From positions 1-6,632 of the forward strand of contig SUVZ01000216.1 of assembly GCA_015061765.1 (NCBI GenBank): a stretch of DNA of 6,632 nucleotides, read 5' to 3'. The position numbers and the translations under genes were made by a program. The notes under the pieces were generated by a model that worked only from the letters and a program-made list of their open reading frames with translations, did not search any database and was not told the DNA's origin. Positions 1-6,632 of this stretch are shown here, piece after piece. Position 1 is the first letter of the stretch; every line of letters begins with the position of its first letter. This stretch comes from Lentisphaerota bacterium. Its GTDB lineage: Bacteria; Verrucomicrobiota; Kiritimatiellia; RFP12; UBA1067.

Positions 1-38
1 CCGGTTCGGTAGTACCTTGAATAGTATTCGTCTTTCAT
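1..38 (-). CDS. possible 5' end of a leftward gene (partial)
   Basis: Reading leftward from an ATG at 38-36, 12 complete codons are open to the window edge (MKDEYYSRYYRT). No function can be named from so little. The start is chosen because a TGATAAAAT extended -10 box (56-48) lies 9 nt upstream, much like the two confident leaderless genes at 1778 and 2967, and because no Shine-Dalgarno is visible. The surrounding 39-120 stretch is AT-rich, as expected of a promoter region. If real, the gene is divergent from the regulator at 1778, with the repeat array between them. It could equally be chance. Confidence 0.35.
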   Translation of the reverse strand, partial: MKDEYYSRYYRT

Positions 39-147
39 AACGGGGTTATTTTATCATTTTAACCACTCGATAAATATGGCTAAACTGCCAAAAGATTTAT
101 CCTTTTCGCCAACAAATCAAACACTGATGGGATCAGTCCTTCCTCCG
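39..147. other. AT-rich non-coding stretch
   Basis: No credible gene is seen. It lies between the candidate leftward start at 38 and the terminator, and holds the candidate leftward -10 box. No palindrome or repeat stands out. Confidence 0.5.
48..56 (-). promoter_or_regulatory. candidate extended -10 promoter box (leftward)
   Basis: On the minus strand the bases read TGATAAAAT: the TGN extension plus a five-of-six match to TATAAT. It ends 9 nt before the ATG at 38. No convincing -35 hexamer is found at the usual distance. It resembles TGATACAAT in front of the gene at 2967. Confidence 0.4.
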
Positions 148-191
148 AAAAAAAAAAGGAAACCCCGGACAATGCCGGGGTTTCCTTTTTT
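148..191. terminator. bidirectional intrinsic terminator
   Basis: A perfect 11-bp stem (158-168 with 175-185, GGAAACCCCGG against CCGGGGTTTCC) has a 6-nt loop. It is flanked by ten A on the left (148-157) and six T on the right (186-191), so it can act in both directions. The longer U-tract, ten residues, is on the minus-strand transcript. A leftward RNA coming from the repeat array would therefore end here. No gene that clearly needs it is visible on either side within the window. Confidence 0.93.
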
Positions 192-263
192 GCTTTACCG
201 CTACTCTTGATTAGAGCACGGGGAGAGCGGCGAGCTCGGTGAGGAGCTTGTGCGATAGGGAAA

Positions 264-304
264 GTCCGTCGCGCGTCCGTGTGTAGTCCGTTGTGCGTAT
301 TCGT
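264..304 (+). repeat. array block 1
   Basis: Three exact GTCCGT cores at 264, 275 and 286, followed by a degenerate ATTCGT at 299 that is two bases out of phase. The block stops where the hairpin cluster begins. Confidence 0.85.
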
Positions 305-314
305 GGTAGATGTG

Positions 315-405
315 CCGAAGAAAGCGAATGCTTTCGGAGGGAAGATTCGGCGTAAGCCGAACCCGAAGGGTGCGCAAGCATCCACGCGCGTTATCCCTAA
401 CGCGC
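315..405. other. cluster of four consecutive hairpins inside the array
   Basis: Four stem-loops follow each other. First, 315-337: AAAGC/GCTTT with loop GAAT, extended by CCG/CGG across a 3-nt bulge. Second, 346-361: TTCGGC/GCCGAA with loop GTAA. Third, 368-383: GGGTGC/GCATCC with loop GCAA and one G-U pair. Fourth, 386-405: GCGCGTTA/TAACGCGC with loop TCCC. Loops two and three would be GNRA tetraloops in plus-strand RNA, which favours an RNA role in that orientation, but no known RNA family is recognised. The cluster fills the gap between cores at 286 and 411. Confidence 0.7.
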
Positions 406-410
406 CGCCA

Positions 411-532
411 GTCCGTTTCCAGTCCGTGTGCCGCGCAATCTGCCGCCGCCCATCTTGGCACGTCTGGGCTTGTCCAAGTCTGACCGAAGCCCGCCCGTCG
501 CCCGTCCGTCAGAAGCCCGTAGGCAAGCCCGT
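411..532 (+). repeat. array higher-order repeat, copy 1
   Basis: This stretch contains cores at 411, 422, 493, 504, 515 and 527 with a poorly phased GC-rich middle (433-490). It aligns with 586-709 at an offset of 175-178 nt: both begin GTCCGTTTCC, share a middle segment identical at 16 of 19 positions (446-464 against 624-642), and both reach CCGTCAGAAG before the next core. Confidence 0.75.
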
Positions 533-585
533 GTGCCGCCCGTTGCACGTCCGTAGGGGAATCGTCTGTGATAAGCCCGTGGCGT

Positions 586-709
586 GTCCGTTTCCCGTCC
601 GTGGCAAGTCCGCCGCCGCGCCACCGCCCATCTCGGAATGTCGCAAAATGTCGGCATCAGACGAATGCCCGCCCGTCCGCCGCCCGTCAGAAGTCCGTCG
701 CTGGCCCGT
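586..709 (+). repeat. array higher-order repeat, copy 2
   Basis: Diverged duplicate of 411-532, with cores at 586, 597, 608 (GTCCGC), 671, 682, 693 and 704. The middle (614-670) lacks clear 11-nt phasing, as in copy 1. It suggests the array grew partly by segmental duplication of more than ten units at a time. Confidence 0.75.
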
Positions 710-738
710 GGAGAGTCCGCCGCGTGTCGCGAAGCGAC
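671..738 (+). repeat. array block with perfect 11-nt phase, ending in a small hairpin
   Basis: Cores at 671, 682, 693, 704 and 715, and a decayed one at 726, are all exactly 11 nt apart. The last merges with a hairpin, GTCGC-GAA-GCGAC (726-738), next to the large inverted repeat. Confidence 0.8.
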
Positions 739-747
739 CATTCCCAT

Positions 748-783
748 GGCCGATTGTGGACGCGCCGACGTCCACAATCGGCC
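748..783. repeat. perfect 15-bp inverted repeat with 6-nt loop
   Basis: GGCCGATTGTGGACG (748-762) is followed by six bases and then its exact reverse complement (769-783). A weaker outer pairing, GAAGC (731-735) with GCTTC (784-788), surrounds it. It sits at the point where the array switches orientation. There is no T-tract on either side, so it is not an ordinary intrinsic terminator. It could be a protein-binding palindrome or a cruciform site. Confidence 0.9.
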
Positions 784-807
784 GCTTCACCCTGTGAGCC
801 GCCGCGC

Positions 808-894
808 ACGAACGCCACACGAACCAACACAAGACGAACGCCACACAGGACGCGACCGAACGACGAACGAACGCAGAACGAACAACCGACGAAC
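808..894 (-). repeat. inverted sub-array, core GTTCGT
   Basis: The plus strand reads ACGAAC at 808, 819, 834, 867, 878 and 889, with a partial unit (CCGAAC) at 856. Steps are 11, 15, 22, 11, 11 and 11 nt. Read on the minus strand these are GTTCGT cores with 5-nt spacers, the same architecture as the plus-strand array but with T instead of C at core position 3. No G(T/C)CCGT core occurs in this orientation here. Confidence 0.85.
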
Positions 895-946
895 ACATAC
901 GCGCCCGCTCGACAAGCGACCCTCTCAACTCCGCCGACCGTCAATC

Positions 947-1083
947 GCCCGTGTGTAGTCCGTCAGAAGCCCGTGGTAGGGCGGTCGCCCCGCGACCGCC
1001 GTCCGTCGATTGTCTGTATCTTGTCCGTGTCCTGTCCGTCGTGTGTCCGTGATATGACCTTTGTAAGTCCGTGTTCCGGCCGG
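947..1083 (+). repeat. array block resumed on the plus strand
   Basis: Cores at 947, 958 and 969 are followed by a perfect hairpin (980-1000). Cores then resume at 1001, 1012 (GTCTGT), 1023, 1034, 1045, 1056 (GACCTT), 1067 and 1078 (GGCCGG): eight consecutive phased positions. The 17-mer GTCCGTCAGAAGCCCGT at 958-974 also occurs at 504-520. The motif fades out after 1083. Confidence 0.88.
980..1000. other. 9-bp perfect hairpin inside the array
   Basis: GGCGGTCGC, a CCC loop and GCGACCGCC. The core before it starts at 969 and the one after at 1001, a step of 32, one short of three units. The hairpin thus occupies the place of about two repeat units. Confidence 0.8.
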
Positions 1084-1230
1084 CAAAGGGCATGTTCCCA
1101 CAAAGGTTCAAGAAGTCTGGACGAGATTCACTATGCCATTTGGAGGATATTCACCGGCGGCATTGCATCGTCTTCCGACTTCATGGGGCGCAAAGGTCTG
1201 TCCCTTTTCAGGGGTCCCCGTAGTTTCCAA
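1084..1230. other. non-coding stretch after the array
   Basis: No credible gene is seen. Both strands have open frames, but they have no recognisable product and run across repeats. A short stem, AAAGG/CCTTT (1192-1207), and a GGGGTCCCC tract (1211-1219) are the only local structure noticed. Confidence 0.5.
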
Positions 1231-1329
1231 TTCGGAGCAATTCTCTCGCTTCTGATGTAATGAGGCCGAGGGATGATGAGAATACGCTTTGGACTGATTC
1301 TCAAGATTACGGAGCGGACGAAATCCTAT
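1231..1329 (+). repeat. intergenic direct repeat, copy A
   Basis: Matches 1516-1609. The first part (1231-1253) is identical at 22 of 23 bases. A variable linker follows (17 nt here, 12 in copy B), then 1271-1329 matches 1551-1609 at 54 of 59. The second part holds a stem-loop, GAGAAT (1278-1283) with ATTCTC (1297-1302), whose stem is conserved while the 13-nt loop carries three of the five differences. Function unknown; it could be a mobile intergenic element or a duplicated regulatory site. Confidence 0.85.
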
Positions 1330-1515
1330 AAACCTCCCAAACAACACTATTTTATAAAAACACCAGAAACACAAGCGAAATTACCAATCTTTTCAGGGTC
1401 CCACCCCAATTATTCCAGTAAACACTGTTCATTGTTTATAAATGCGGTGGTAGAGCCTCTCTTGGATACAGTTCGCAAACTATTGCCTTGTGCCATTCGG
1501 GAGATGAGAATTCGA
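1330..1515. other. non-coding stretch between the two repeat copies
   Basis: AT-richer sequence with no credible gene. A TTTCAGGGTCCC stretch (1391-1402) resembles 1206-1218. A TTTATAAAT stretch (near 1435) is promoter-like but has no supporting -35 box or gene. The final bases (1506-1515) form the left side of the first stem-loop of copy B. Confidence 0.45.
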
Positions 1516-1609
1516 TTCGGAACAATTCTCTCGCTTCTAATAAGACCGCGGGATGATGAGAATATGGTTTGGATTGATTCTCAAGATTACGGCGCGGACG
1601 AAATCTTAT
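1516..1609 (+). repeat. intergenic direct repeat, copy B
   Basis: Second copy of the element at 1231-1329. It carries two stem-loops of the same design: GAGAATT (1506-1512) with AATTCTC (1524-1530), and GAGAAT (1558-1563) with ATTCTC (1577-1582). In copy A the left arm of the first stem-loop has decayed. Open frames across both copies on either strand give similar peptides simply because the DNA is repeated. Confidence 0.85.
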
Positions 1610-1638
1610 CCCATCCATTTATCTTAACCCCACCCGTA

Positions 1639-1659
1639 CAACGCGCAGCTTGCGCGTTG
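1639..1659. other. 9-bp perfect hairpin upstream of the regulator
   Basis: CAACGCGCA, loop GCT, TGCGCGTTG. On the plus strand it is followed by CATTTTG, a short T-run, so a weak terminator that insulates the regulator promoter from upstream transcription is possible. A protein-binding palindrome is the alternative. Confidence 0.6.
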
Positions 1660-1764
1660 CATTTTGAAGGGTGTCCCCAGTTGTTCAGAATCGGCAAAAC
1701 ATAAGCTGTTAATCTTTTTGAGGTGTTGCGCTGCCTTTTATTATTCTGTGTCGAGTAGATGTTG

Positions 1765-1770
1765 TATAAT
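1765..1770 (+). promoter_or_regulatory. -10 box of the regulator gene, leaderless arrangement
   Basis: A consensus TATAAT ends 7 nt before the ATG at 1778 (TATAATTTACGGCATG). The -35 region is weak (TTATTC at 1741-1746, spacer 18). Transcription would start within a base or two of the ATG, leaving no room for a Shine-Dalgarno. Confidence 0.75.
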
Positions 1771-1777
1771 TTACGGC

Positions 1778-2878
1778 ATGAAAGATGTGAAGATAGATGG
1801 CATTGAGGAATGCGTTGGACTCCCTCGGTATCGCGAAGTGGCCGATAAGCTGCGCGATGATATCCTTTCCGGCAAATATATGCCAGGCTCTGCGTTCCCG
1901 TCCGTGAAGATGATATGCCGCCGATTTTCCGTGTCGCATTTAACAGCGGTCAAGGCGATTGAGGCGTTGAAGCAGGTGAAGCTCATAAAGTCTCGCAATG
2001 GCGTCGGCACTTTCGTGGCGCGAAGAATGACATCTATCGGTCTGGTGGTTCCCATGCAGAAACAGGTTGAGATATTTCCGCCCATCTGTCAGGAGATTTC
2101 ACGCCTATGCATGGAACGCGGTGTTGCCGTTGATTTTGCCGATATATCGTCGGTGTCCGCCGATAAAGTGCATTCCGTTGTTATTGCAATGGCGGAAAGA
2201 ATGGTGGCGGCAGGGGTGTCGGGTGTTGTTTTTCATCCCATCGATTTCGGTGATAACGCTCTGGATGCAAACGGTGAAGTGCTGCGGATATTCAGCCGGG
2301 CTTCGATTCCGGTAATCATACTTGATACCGATATTGCCCCAATGCCGGAAGAGGATCGTTTTGATTTTGTAGGCGTGGATAATTTCGAGATCGGACAATT
2401 TGCCGGCAGGCACGTCATTGCTCACGGGGCCCGAAAGATTGTGTTTGTCTCACGAACTAAAATCAACGACAATGTCCAACGGCGGTTGGAAGGGCTTTTG
2501 TCGGCGATTTCCATGAATCGCGGCGCTAAACTAGCCGGAAAGTATTTGAGCCTTGATGAAAAACTGCTCTCCGAGAAATGGGGAAGGGCTCTTCCGGACG
2601 CTATTGTCTGCGCGAGCGACTTTGTTGCGGTGCATGTGTTGAAGATTTTGCGGAAAATAGGCAAACGATGTCCGCAGGATGTTCTTGTTACCGGCGTGAA
2701 CGATGTTGATCTCGCTACACTTGTATCGCCTACACTTACTACTGTCCATCAACCGTGCAAGTCAATTGCGCGTACGGCGTTCGAAACGCTTCTTTGGCGC
2801 ATTGACAATCCCGATGCGGAAAAGCGCCGTATTATGATTGCCGCCGAGCTTGTTGTGCGTGAGTCGACATCGCGTTGA
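1778..2878 (+). CDS. GntR/LacI hybrid transcriptional regulator
   Basis: A 366-residue DNA-binding regulator. Residues about 16-80 form a GntR-type winged helix: an N-terminal helix (YREVADKLRDDILSGKY), a PS-VKMICRRFSVSHLTAVKAI helix-turn-helix and the wing NGVGTFV. Residues about 86-366 match a LacI/ribose-binding-protein ligand domain, with FVGVDNFEIGQFAGRHV (197-213), DAIVCASDFVAVHVLKIL (274-291) and a C-terminal SPTLTTVHQP (317-326). This is the AraR-like architecture, known to sense sugars and release DNA on binding them. A longer frame starting with TTG at 1664 is open but would span the promoter, so the ATG at 1778, 7 nt after TATAAT, is preferred. It lies 88 nt upstream of the DUF4838 gene and probably controls it. 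The ligand cannot be told from the sequence. Confidence 0.95.
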   Translation: MKDVKIDGIEECVGLPRYREVADKLRDDILSGKYMPGSAFPSVKMICRRFSVSHLTAVKAIEALKQVKLIKSRNGVGTFVARRMTSIGLVVPMQKQVEIFPPICQEISRLCMERGVAVDFADISSVSADKVHSVVIAMAERMVAAGVSGVVFHPIDFGDNALDANGEVLRIFSRASIPVIILDTDIAPMPEEDRFDFVGVDNFEIGQFAGRHVIAHGARKIVFVSRTKINDNVQRRLEGLLSAISMNRGAKLAGKYLSLDEKLLSEKWGRALPDAIVCASDFVAVHVLKILRKIGKRCPQDVLVTGVNDVDLATLVSPTLTTVHQPCKSIARTAFETLLWRIDNPDAEKRRIMIAAELVVRESTSR

Positions 2879-2950
2879 CGGAATGTCGGCGATGATCTGA
2901 CGCATCCTGAAAAACCGTTATATAAAGGTCGTCTGCTGCATTTGCGTACA

Positions 2951-2959
2951 TGATACAAT
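2951..2959 (+). promoter_or_regulatory. extended -10 box of the DUF4838 gene, leaderless arrangement
   Basis: TGATACAAT: a TGN extension and a five-of-six -10 hexamer ending 7 nt before the ATG at 2967. No -35 hexamer is visible, which fits an extended -10 promoter. The stretch from GTACATG to the ATG closely matches the regulator's own promoter (GTAGATG to ATG), so it may also contain a shared operator. Confidence 0.7.
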
Positions 2960-2966
2960 TTGCGGC

Positions 2967-4943
2967 ATGAGACAAATATTCTGTTATAGCAATAGATTGT
3001 TCGCCAGTAAGTCTGATTTGCCGGCGGCAAGATTTGTGTTTGCGTTTCTATTGATGGTTGCGGGTCTTTCGCTCAATGCTTTTGAGATTGATTTGCGTAC
3101 GGCGCGAATTGACGCGACGCCTGTCAACGAGAGCCAGCGACGTGCGGTAAAAGAACTTGAAAAGCATCTTTCAATGATTGCAAAAGGCAGAAAGCCGGGC
3201 GGTGCCGCGGATTCACCGGCCATTTTTGTGATCGGGAAAGCCGCCCCTGGATTTTCAGAAGCGTCTGAATATGAAGCTCGCGCGGAGGCAGTCAACGGAA
3301 AGATTTATTTCTGGGGAGATGATTCGGGACTTCATGTGAAGCCGCCTAAGATTTCCTCTCAACGATGGGGAACCTTATATGCAGTATATGGATTTTTGGA
3401 GAAAGTGCTTGGTGTTAAATGGGTTGGTCCTGGAGACCGGGGGATCGTACTTGCCGAGCGCGATACGGTGAATGTTCCAGATGGTTGGTCCTATAGGTTC
3501 TTTCCTCCGCTGGAAGTGTCGCGTATTGCGGAATATACGGGTCGACCTGCATCTCTGTTGAGTTCGCGAAATATAAGCAGCACTCCGACGGCTCTGCGCA
3601 TCAACGAGGACCAGGCTCGAAGATTTGGTCACGATTGGGAACAATGGATGCGTCGGCTTCGGCATCAGACGCGCAAACGTTTCCCGTCGGGACATGCGTT
3701 TACGGATTGGAACCGGCGGTTTGCGGCGACTAAACCGGAGCTTCTGGCTTTGGATGAAAAAGGGCGGCGGGGGTTCCCCGGCGAGCATGAAAAGGATTCG
3801 TCAAGAGCGAGGTGGATGAAGCTTTGCGTTTCCAATCCTGCGGTCGCCGATCAGATAATAGCCGATTGGTGCGCGCGCGGCACTAACGAATATCTGAACA
3901 TCTGCCCGAACGACGCATTCAATTTCTGCCGCTGTGAAGGTTGCCGCGCATGGGATGCAGATCGCCCCGGGGAGGATTTCAACGCGCACAAGACCGACCG
4001 CTACGTGAAATTCTGGAACCGGGTGACGGAAAAGGCCCGTGCCGTGCGGCCTGACGTGACAGTGGTGACGTATCTTTATTCGTCGTATCGCTTTCCACCC
4101 CGCAGGGAAAAGCTGCAACATGCGGAGAACATGCTTTTCAGCATAGTTCCTGCACTAAATGACGATTCCGAAGGATTGATCGGCAAGTGGCGTGCGATCG
4201 GGCTCAAGCGCTATTTCGTGCGCCCCAATTATCTTTGCTGCTACACGGCTCCGGTACGCGGACTCGAGCGTTTCTTCTGCGAAGATTTCAAGCGCAATCT
4301 CGTCGGCGGCATGATAGGCGTTGACGAGGACAACTGTCCGCGGCCGCCTGCGCAGTTTGAGTTTTACACGCTGGGACGGCTTATTGCGGAGCCGGATTTG
4401 CCCTTTGAAACCATTGAGGCGGAATACATGTCGCAGTATGGTGCCGCCGCACCGGAAATGAAGGAGTATTTCGCCAGGGTGCGTATGCGCGGCGAAGCTG
4501 GGCGGAACAAGGATGTAGAGGCGAACATGCGAAAACTCAGCGGAGTTAAGGAAACGATCCTTGACGATTCGCAGCTTTACGGAGCGGTATACGCCGCGCA
4601 TACCGATGAAGATTATGCTGGTGATCTTGAAGTCGTCAAGCGCGCACTTGCCCATGACAATCTTTCCGGACTCGAGCGCTGGCGCGTGAACCGCGTCCGG
4701 GCGATGATTGAAAACGCGAGACTTACGCGCAAGTTCATTTATGCCCGGGACAAGATGAAGGTGCCGGAATTTGCCGAACTCGGACGCGAACTTATCATGA
4801 AGCGCATTGAACTTAAAGATGAAATAGACGATAAGTGCTGGGGCGCGGTTTTCCGCGGCTATCCGGCAGAAGTCCGTTGGTGGATGTGGATTAAAGACAA
4901 GTACCTCAAGGAATTTTGGGAGCCGCCGGTTCCTGTGAAGTGA
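2967..4943 (+). CDS. secreted DUF4838 domain protein, glycosidase-like
   Basis: A 658-residue exported protein. Residues 1-38 look like a signal peptide: an unusually long basic N-region (about 22 residues), a hydrophobic core FVFAFLLMVAGLSL and a likely cut after LNA. Residues about 55-170 resemble the alpha-glucuronidase (GH67) N-terminal domain, including IFVIGK (86-91) and GTLYAVYGFLEKVLGVKWVG (135-154). Residues about 235-480 match DUF4838: SGHAFTDW (241-248), LCVSNPAV (286-293), CPNDAFNFCRCEGC (313-326) and TDRYVKFWNRV (343-353). DUF4838 proteins are often found in polysaccharide-degradation loci of Bacteroidota and PVC bacteria and are thought to be glycosidase-like; no activity can be assigned here. 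The C-terminal 480-658 is helical and charged. The start rests on promoter spacing, with no Shine-Dalgarno. It lies between the regulator and a large secreted protein, with which it probably forms an operon. Confidence 0.92.
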   Translation: MRQIFCYSNRLFASKSDLPAARFVFAFLLMVAGLSLNAFEIDLRTARIDATPVNESQRRAVKELEKHLSMIAKGRKPGGAADSPAIFVIGKAAPGFSEASEYEARAEAVNGKIYFWGDDSGLHVKPPKISSQRWGTLYAVYGFLEKVLGVKWVGPGDRGIVLAERDTVNVPDGWSYRFFPPLEVSRIAEYTGRPASLLSSRNISSTPTALRINEDQARRFGHDWEQWMRRLRHQTRKRFPSGHAFTDWNRRFAATKPELLALDEKGRRGFPGEHEKDSSRARWMKLCVSNPAVADQIIADWCARGTNEYLNICPNDAFNFCRCEGCRAWDADRPGEDFNAHKTDRYVKFWNRVTEKARAVRPDVTVVTYLYSSYRFPPRREKLQHAENMLFSIVPALNDDSEGLIGKWRAIGLKRYFVRPNYLCCYTAPVRGLERFFCEDFKRNLVGGMIGVDEDNCPRPPAQFEFYTLGRLIAEPDLPFETIEAEYMSQYGAAAPEMKEYFARVRMRGEAGRNKDVEANMRKLSGVKETILDDSQLYGAVYAAHTDEDYAGDLEVVKRALAHDNLSGLERWRVNRVRAMIENARLTRKFIYARDKMKVPEFAELGRELIMKRIELKDEIDDKCWGAVFRGYPAEVRWWMWIKDKYLKEFWEPPVPVK

Positions 4944-4947
4944 CAAG

Positions 4948-4953
4948 AAAGGA
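4948..4953 (+). promoter_or_regulatory. ribosome binding site that decides the start at 4963
   Basis: AAAGGA lies 9 nt before the ATG at 4963. A nearer ATG at 4958 is followed at once by a stop (ATG ATA TGA), so 4963 is the real start. This is the only clear Shine-Dalgarno among the gene starts in the window, in keeping with an internal gene of an operon. Confidence 0.8.
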
Positions 4954-4962
4954 CTGAATGAT

Positions 4963-6632
4963 ATGAATAAGCGAGTAATGCTCCTGGGCGCGTTGGCAGT
5001 GGCGATTGTACAGCTTGTGCGTGCAGACCAATATGACGAAACTACCGGTTATGTAACCATGCTGCGCAATGACTCGGAAAATGTCAGATCGCTTGCAGCA
5101 ATCGGCAATTGGTCCGACGGACTTGCTCCGCATGACAATCCGCCCACAAACTATTATGTCCGGGCCGGATGGACGGCTCAGGGGCCTGCGGACAATATGA
5201 CGTTCCCATCGCTGTTGATGGTGGCTGGAGATGTGCGTTGTCGAGGCGGAAACGGTAAAACAGGAACATTCAAGGATTTGAGAATTCTGGCCGATGGTGG
5301 AATTAAATTTTCTGATGATGGAAAAGTCGCCGGAAAGATTACGTTTCTTTCTGAAGATGCAGAACATCCTTCCTGCATACGCTATATCAGACAGAATTTT
5401 AACAGTGTAAAGCTTGGGGCGGAGGTAATCGGTTCGGAACAATCACAGGTATATTTTTATCAGTTTGTATCTTCATATAAAGGACTGTCCTATCTCTTGC
5501 CTGAATCAGGAAGCGATTGGACGAAGTTTTCAGGGACATTTCGTTTTGCTGACGGGTTCGGCATGAAAATCCCTGCGAGTACGAGTTTCGTTACTCCGGG
5601 AACATTTGTCTTCGGTAATAAAGCCTGGCTTGATATCTCTGCAAAAAGTGATTTCGGCAATCTTTCTTTTGCTGAAAATTCATCGCTGACCAATTCTGCA
5701 CAGCTTGATGTAGCCGGGACGTTGAATACCGGAATGAATATGCAATGGCAATCCGTGAGGGGAAATTCACGCATATCTACAGTAGGTACATTAGCAGTCG
5801 GCGATGGTTCGTGTCTGAATTTCACCAAAGGAACCGGGATGCCGGAAATGTTTTATGTGACAAACAGGCTCGAAATCGGTTCGCAGGTGCGTATGTGTTA
5901 TAAGGATATGAATACAACGGCAGAGTCCGGCGGCGACCCCGTTGAGTTTCCAATGTTTCGTCTTTCTCCGCAAGCCGTTGCGGCGGGCTTGCCTGACTTT
6001 ACGGGTTTAAATGCCACGATGGATACGTATATGGGAATGCTCCCGTTTTTTACTGTCAATGTGCGCGATGATGACGAGGTCGTCGGCGGGAAATACGTTT
6101 GCCTGTCACATCGGAAAGTCGTAAGCTACTGTGGCGTAGATCAGCAGAATGAAAGCAATTGCAAGATGGATACAAGCGTATCGCAGGAAGGTGTGTGGTC
6201 GGATGGCCGTTGGCCGCATTCTGATGCTGATTACTATGTGGGACGTTCCCGTTCCGGATATGTCATGTCTGGCTCGATTGCATTTCGTGCGCCGACGGCG
6301 ACATATCCCAATCGCGTAACGACATTCCCAGGAGGAGGTCTTTGTGTCGGGCCGGAAGGAGTTGTTTATCTGTACGCATCGTCATATATCACCAATCTGC
6401 ATACATTCGGCACCGCATATATTTATCCAAGAGTATCGTGCAGACTCTCAGGAAAATGGACGTTGCATCGCTACCCGGCGGCCGGACAGGAAGCTGTTGT
6501 GCGGATGTATAATGATTCCTCGTTCCATCTTGAGTCTGAATTGACCGGCGATGGTGACATCAATGCAGAGTGCTACTATCCGGACAGTGCAGGGGCATCA
6601 TTGTATCTTTCTGCAATCAATACGAACTGGAC
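4963..6632 (+). CDS. large secreted beta-repeat protein (3' end beyond window)
   Basis: The frame is open for 556 codons to the window end without a stop. Residues 1-21 form a clean signal peptide (MNKR, then MLLGALAVAIVQLV, cut after VRA). The rest is rich in Gly, Ser, Thr, Asn and aromatic residues with short beta-strand-like segments and few charged helices, as in extracellular beta-helix or autotransporter-like proteins. Two modules begin alike: NWSDGLAPHDNPPTNYYV at residues 49-66 and a WSDGRWPHSDADYYV stretch from residue 412, each followed by a beta-rich segment, so the protein probably repeats a unit of about 360 residues. It starts 19 nt after the DUF4838 stop and is probably co-translated from the same message. 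Role unknown; surface adhesion to, or binding of, a glycan substrate is an inference from context. Similar giant proteins are abundant in Kiritimatiellota and Lentisphaerota genomes. Confidence 0.85.
   Translation, partial: MNKRVMLLGALAVAIVQLVRADQYDETTGYVTMLRNDSENVRSLAAIGNWSDGLAPHDNPPTNYYVRAGWTAQGPADNMTFPSLLMVAGDVRCRGGNGKTGTFKDLRILADGGIKFSDDGKVAGKITFLSEDAEHPSCIRYIRQNFNSVKLGAEVIGSEQSQVYFYQFVSSYKGLSYLLPESGSDWTKFSGTFRFADGFGMKIPASTSFVTPGTFVFGNKAWLDISAKSDFGNLSFAENSSLTNSAQLDVAGTLNTGMNMQWQSVRGNSRISTVGTLAVGDGSCLNFTKGTGMPEMFYVTNRLEIGSQVRMCYKDMNTTAESGGDPVEFPMFRLSPQAVAAGLPDFTGLNATMDTYMGMLPFFTVNVRDDDEVVGGKYVCLSHRKVVSYCGVDQQNESNCKMDTSVSQEGVWSDGRWPHSDADYYVGRSRSGYVMSGSIAFRAPTATYPNRVTTFPGGGLCVGPEGVVYLYASSYITNLHTFGTAYIYPRVSCRLSGKWTLHRYPAAGQEAVVRMYNDSSFHLESELTGDGDINAECYYPDSAGASLYLSAINTNW

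Follow-up and report, generated by a model that had tools for sequence, protein, structure and literature searches.

What keeps a six-base core at an exact 11-bp step in intergenic DNA whose other bases change almost freely? The question is raised by a locus of an uncultured Lentisphaerota bacterium (GenBank assembly GCA_015061765.1), analysed here in a window of 6,632 nucleotides (contig SUVZ01000216.1, positions 1 to 6,632). The repeated unit consists of a near-fixed GYYCGT core and five almost free bases. The array occupies the gap between two divergent genes, the left gene and a GntR-LacI-type regulator that is followed by a DUF4838 gene, and is broken up by hairpins at 386-405, 748-783 and 976-1000. 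The parts of the locus are:

1-38, minus strand: start of the left gene, a putative AraC-type regulator of 294 aa, whole in strain G263
152-191, no strand: terminator-like hairpin that has A and T tracts and separates the left gene from the array
264-709, plus strand: forward array, in which 18 exact cores, spread over several runs, are paired with another exact core at 11 bp; also in G263
386-405, no strand: 8-bp hairpin insert, arms 386-393 and 398-405; a kindred insert occurs in loci L245 and L246
748-783, no strand: 15-bp hairpin that separates the forward from the reverse array
808-894, minus strand: reverse array, in which the exact cores read GTTCGT
947-1072, plus strand: right part of the forward array; G263 is longer by 66 bp (six units) at 1044/1045 as aligned
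976-1000, no strand: GTAG-tagged REP-like palindrome within the right array
1778-2878, plus strand: GntR-LacI-type regulator, right-hand neighbour of the array

Among the four window proteins scanned with Pfam, one matched GntR/LacI, one matched DUF4838 and two had no match, and the 120 listed homologues of the GntR-LacI-type regulator include two from named organisms, both Kiritimatiellae bacterium. A coding role for the array was rejected, as the unit of 11 is kept by the steps as well as by the 66 bp that distinguish the strains; its open frames are taken as fortuitous. A second dispersed repeat has two copies in the window, at 1228-1410 and 1504-1677, and window positions 1060-1800 have at least 41 matches in G263 and at least 33 in G262 (40 candidates scored per genome).

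The phased 11-bp array in the window is real. Positions 264-1083 contain 27 exact forward cores, compared with 4.2 ± 2.0 in 500 dinucleotide-preserving shuffles and 31 in the whole 6,632-base window, and 16 GYYCGT-N5-GYYCGT pairs, compared with a shuffle mean of 0.016 and a maximum of 2. At lags 8 to 15 the exact-core pairs number 0, 0, 0, 16, 1, 0, 0 and 1. The first-pass annotation had made an excess of lag-11 autocorrelation over shuffled sequence the mark of a genuine array, and this excess was found (0.413 versus 0.272 shuffled, z 8.8, reached by 0 of 500 shuffles); other peaks fall at lags 22 and 33, and also at 4, 7, 15, 18 and 26. Nor is the pattern spread evenly over the remaining window, as 1778-6632 lacks any phased core pair and holds isolated cores only, four forward and three reverse. 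Ten exact cores lie on the opposite strand of the window, seven of them at 808-894. The annotation's fixed cores, variable spacers and locked 11-bp step were all upheld. Of its "about 36 copies" the array itself stands, with the count better given as 27 forward and 7 reverse exact cores, or as 33 forward and 9 reverse cores when one mismatch is tolerated in phase. Its runs of up to eight phased positions were too long: the longest spans five successive positions with at most one mismatch per core, or four exact cores (671-704). An Rfam search of the window gave no match.

The same locus in closely related strains shows how the array changes. G263 equals the window over 1-1230 save for a terminator patch, 66 bp, two single changes and a 4-base gap. 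The 66 bp, exactly six units, are present in G263 and missing from the window, which provides one case of a whole-unit length difference between strains; the earlier annotation had proposed to compare array length between strains. The array's presence in both the window and G263, with the 66-bp difference and a differing terminator hairpin, led us to reject an assembly artefact. At that hairpin (152-191) the G263 arms differ and the flanks are identical, with the hairpin retained in both. Past window position 1230 G263 diverges, while G262 keeps on like the window (91.6% over 1087-1419); the divergence possibly reflects a gene-cluster exchange beside the array, or a misassembly. Beyond this point G263 leads to another regulator gene, putatively AraC-LacI. 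Two G262 contigs terminate exactly at window positions 236 and 1087, from which we infer that the G262 assembly breaks there at an array. Core-run counts in draft genomes are therefore probably too low.

The window array belongs, as one copy, to a family of noncoding arrays that are dispersed over intergenic sites. A scan of genome contigs for four phased cores returned at least 120 loci, with 15 among those listed in G001 (JAQVUB, 'Lentisphaeria bacterium isolate STF1_46') and 3 in G002 (RUG12478), and a scan of viral contigs with the phased-core pattern returned 93 loci. In the class of G002, 6 of 345 genomes carry an exact three-core run (G002 97, G263 19, G265 14, G014 2, G165 1 and G175 1); only G002, G263 and G265 have more than two, and the pattern read backwards as a control gives a single match in each of six genomes. 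Within the order, a run with at most one mismatch occurs in 6 of 115 sampled genomes and more than one run only in G002 and G263, in a sample that left out G262 and G265. Of the five genomes examined for the genus, the assemblies of G262 and G264 lack any exact three-core run, and the congeners G265 and G002 have further arrays whose flanks differ from those of the window. In the class of G001, matches occur in 4 of 197 genomes (G001 474, G374 8, G381 1 and G389 1), and the backward control matches in six genomes. There is no general tendency towards period 11 behind the family: once the pattern matches were masked, the 213 pattern-found loci (1.76 Mb) gave 4 stretches of period 11, compared with 6, 2, 1 and 5 for periods 7, 8, 10 and 14.

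The arrays of other genomes differ in uniformity and arrangement. In G001 they are near-uniform (GTCCGTGTCCC and kin) and sit on a dispersed element; at most places examined, inspection by eye finds that the arrays diverge from a central 68 bp and that the element measures roughly 300 bp. The array of G374 comprises 10 units and, judged by eye, is similar to the G001 element at the right end. Twenty further pattern matches were inspected, 19 from Bacteroidota and one from Methanosarcina, and 19 of these have no reading frame longer than 136 codons across the array, the exception being L021 with 529. These matches are possible relatives of the window array, core and step having been imposed by the query.

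From copy to copy and from species to species, flanks, array length and spacers vary, but the core and the step are retained. Information per position is 0.30-1.62 bits in the core, lowest at the C/T position, and at most 0.29 bits in the spacer. When units are picked by their upstream partner only, an exact core follows two phased ones in 97 of 129 cases in G002, 19 of 34 in G263, 11 of 17 in G265 and 9 of 19 in the window. Steps of up to 60 bp in G002 (n = 166) comprise 124 of 11 bp, 12 of 22 and 6 of 33, as well as 10 of 4 and 6 of 7 due to overlapping registers; these numbers are partly conditioned on phased partners and, like the collinearity and neighbour-spacer statistics below, may count some false units where registers overlap, as in GCCCGTCCGT. 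A shared leader accompanies 11 of 13 fetched G002 array loci (12 places by pattern). The leader pattern was not found in G262, G263, G264, G265 and G001, so that the shared part is the array and not its surroundings. In 12 chosen pairs of G002 copies, differing positions number 13 of 414 in cores, 45 of 948 in the leader and 63 of 257 in spacers. Spacer change is thus about five times that of the leader, which indicates exchange or loss of units; cores and leader differ at 3.1% and 4.7%, the query cores having been chosen exact.

The spacers also retain traces of common descent. Of 66 pairs of G002 arrays, 7 have their units in collinear order, where about 3 are expected at the cut-off, as do 0 of 96 pairs of G002 with other genomes, subject to the register caveat above. 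Distinct spacer words number 58, compared with 109 of 130 in column shuffles, and copies share ancestry. Spacer words are shared beyond composition between G002 and G265 (7 of 16, 0 of 1000 shuffles) and between G263 and G265 (3 of 16, 7 of 1000), with no such excess between G002 and G263 (3 of 21, equalled in 475 of 1000). Adjacent spacers resemble each other less than they do after permutation (z -3.0), which agrees with the earlier view that the array is not a product of simple slippage; adjacent near-identical pairs number 4 versus 11 permuted (12 of 20 parsed arrays). At five other lags the values stay within 1.5, except for lag 5 (z 2.1). In the same 12 of 20 parsed arrays, two-unit blocks recur 11 times versus 5.3 permuted, a value reached by 38 of 2000 permutations. 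Over the 11 gaps that exceed 33 bp, the cores do not clearly stay in phase (Rayleigh test, p about 0.09 for a period of 10.5 bp and 0.56 for one of 11 bp).

If the cores are recognised by a protein, that protein might co-occur with the arrays. The ribbon-helix-helix partner suggested by the first-pass annotation found no support: RHH_1 (PF01402), the one such family searched, has no match at E <= 1e-3 in the five genomes of the genus, which are drafts of unstated completeness, and G001 and G374 each gave a single weak match. MraZ was rejected as a partner, with no match in G002 and G001, the genomes richest in arrays; it matches in G263, G264 (which has no arrays), G265 and G374, and weakly in G262. 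Y1 transposase is uninformative as a partner, as it is found in 6 of 7 chosen genomes yet Y1_Tnp also occurs in 86 of the 115 genomes of the order. A Pfam scan of 10 proteins from array loci found no recurring small DNA-binding protein; two of the ten are AraC-type regulators.

We take a dispersed repeat that acts as a multivalent DNA-binding platform to be the best reading of these observations, with a probability of about 0.42. The cores would be sites for a putative sequence-specific DNA-binding protein packing side by side, at about one site per helical turn, and the array would serve as a multivalent platform whose length varies. Such a platform might serve silencing, partition, chromosome organisation or the insulation of neighbouring gene clusters from one another; we consider local silencing, or the insulation of clusters that are read divergently, the likeliest of these. 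Recognition at the DNA level fits best because the core and 11-bp step persist, three folded array strands show no structure beyond that of shuffles, array composition is mostly not rut-like and the arrays are intergenic in either orientation. More doubtful is the wider proposal of an undescribed class of chromosomal phased arrays, with one 6-bp word per turn and a putative trans-acting protein, patchy in Kiritimatiellae, Lentisphaeria and perhaps Bacteroidota, which would coat intergenic DNA as filaments with a length given by the unit number. The binding platform of the earlier annotation therefore survives as the leading inference, without a named protein. Counted against it are the failure to detect RHH_1 in the congeners and MraZ in G002 and G001, the short-term change of cores, which is hardly less than that of the leader, the phase, which is not clearly held over long interruptions, the partly inherited and shared spacer words, the G001 arrays, which show that growth as near-uniform tandem repeats is possible, and the patchy distribution, with two of five congeners lacking an assembled three-core run.

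Close behind this reading ranks a satellite without cellular function, driven by its cores, which we regard as quite possible. Here units would be lost or duplicated at the short cores, intact cores would be amplified while mutated ones drop out, and phase would be the inherited unit length. The difference of exactly six units between near-identical strains, the recurring two-unit blocks (11 versus 5.3), the reduced set of spacer words (58 versus 109 of 130), the collinear unit order in 7 of 66 G002 pairs and the near-uniform G001 arrays are all consistent with such a history. Recent slippage should, however, give like neighbours, yet near-identical neighbours are depleted (4 versus 11) and adjacent spacers are less alike than permuted ones (z -3.0), and an ordinary satellite is not expected to share core and step between two classes whose flanks differ. 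The satellite stays close because no partner protein was found and phase across interruptions is not clearly held. It is improbable, by comparison, that the array is the internal part and passenger of mobile palindromic elements of REP or MITE type, moved by a Y1/RAYT-type transposase. The GTAG palindrome in the window array, the dispersed G001 element of roughly 300 bp with its divergent arrays, the leader on G002 copies and the G001 array that adjoins a Y1 gene point in this direction, but among the 86 order genomes with Y1_Tnp multiple near-exact runs are confined to G263 and G002, 7 of 8 fetched Y1 loci (L325-L332) contain no phased core pair, and the window region found no match in plasmid and phage collections. 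At the locus in question (L326, G001:C104), about 20 near-identical 11-bp units (GTCCGTGTTCC) adjoin a Y1 transposase gene flanked by direct repeats.

Least probable of all is an element that acts at the RNA level, whereby the transcribed array would be read by an RNA-binding factor such as Rho, or would yield an unstructured antisense RNA. Transcription is suggested by a promoter-like TTGTGGTATAA, a putative promoter that adjoins the hairpin leader in 9 of 11 aligned G002 copies, and in several Bacteroidota matches (among them L016, L043, L056 and L060) 11-nt phased units pair with opposite-strand units in a long hairpin (seen without a shuffle control). The G002 leader, however, is not common to other species, and folding of three G002 array strands gave no more structure than shuffled sequence (z +1.37, +0.24 and +0.50), so that RNA structure of the arrays is unsupported; the whole window region, hairpin inserts included, folds slightly better (z -1.28, with 2 of 20 shuffles reaching it). 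Rho was rejected on composition, as most arrays, unlike a C-rich rut site, have a C/G ratio close to 1 in stretches of 78 nt, the exception being one G265 array (L246) with 1.3-1.6. The arrays lie between reading frames, defined as simple ORFs, in either orientation.

In addition to these rivals, several known systems resemble the arrays in part. Plasmid R1 parC, which is bound by ParR, is a noncoding stretch of direct repeats at an 11-bp step, and the window array shares these features, with 16 exact pairs at that step. Unlike parC, the present arrays are dispersed on chromosomes and reach 20-odd units, the window has no partition genes, with no ParM-like motor gene among the four proteins scanned, and an RHH_1 protein was not detected in the genus. 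MraZ boxes are likewise short direct cores with about five free bases between them, although their core is other than GYYCGT, and MraZ was not detected in the two most array-rich genomes. The arrays also resemble minisatellites or VNTRs in their whole-unit length change (66 bp, one case), but differ in that spacers are almost free and neighbours less alike than chance, with the exception of the G001 arrays, whose neighbours are alike. A further difference from these repeats is that Tandem Repeats Finder at its default score does not report the window array, as roughly half of every unit is free to vary; such arrays are thus easily overlooked. The C-rich, G-poor stretch of a rut site is not seen, L246 being the exception.

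GTAG-tagged REP families, associated with RAYT transposases, occur in Verrucomicrobia, and REPs are hairpins of 20-40 bp of which phased unpaired cores are not known to be a part (PMC3733652). The likeness lies in dispersed intergenic repeats and in the GTAG palindrome inside the window array; the difference from REPs and BIMEs is that the phased cores themselves do not pair. We class the arrays among dispersed repeat arrays rather than with parC, MraZ boxes, rut sites or REPs. A search of the openly licensed literature turned up no account of bacterial intergenic arrays phased at 11 nt.

Should the cores prove to be protein sites, they would point to a protein of chromosome organisation, silencing or partition in a group that is poorly known, and the 474 three-core runs of G001 suggest a defined bait for that protein. 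If the arrays are instead a satellite, it would be an unusual one, in which core and phase are kept while the surroundings turn over. In a Xanthomarina genome (locus L008), a GTCCGT array has near it, at about 6343, another stretch of 11-nt periodicity, whose core is CCTTTCC-like.
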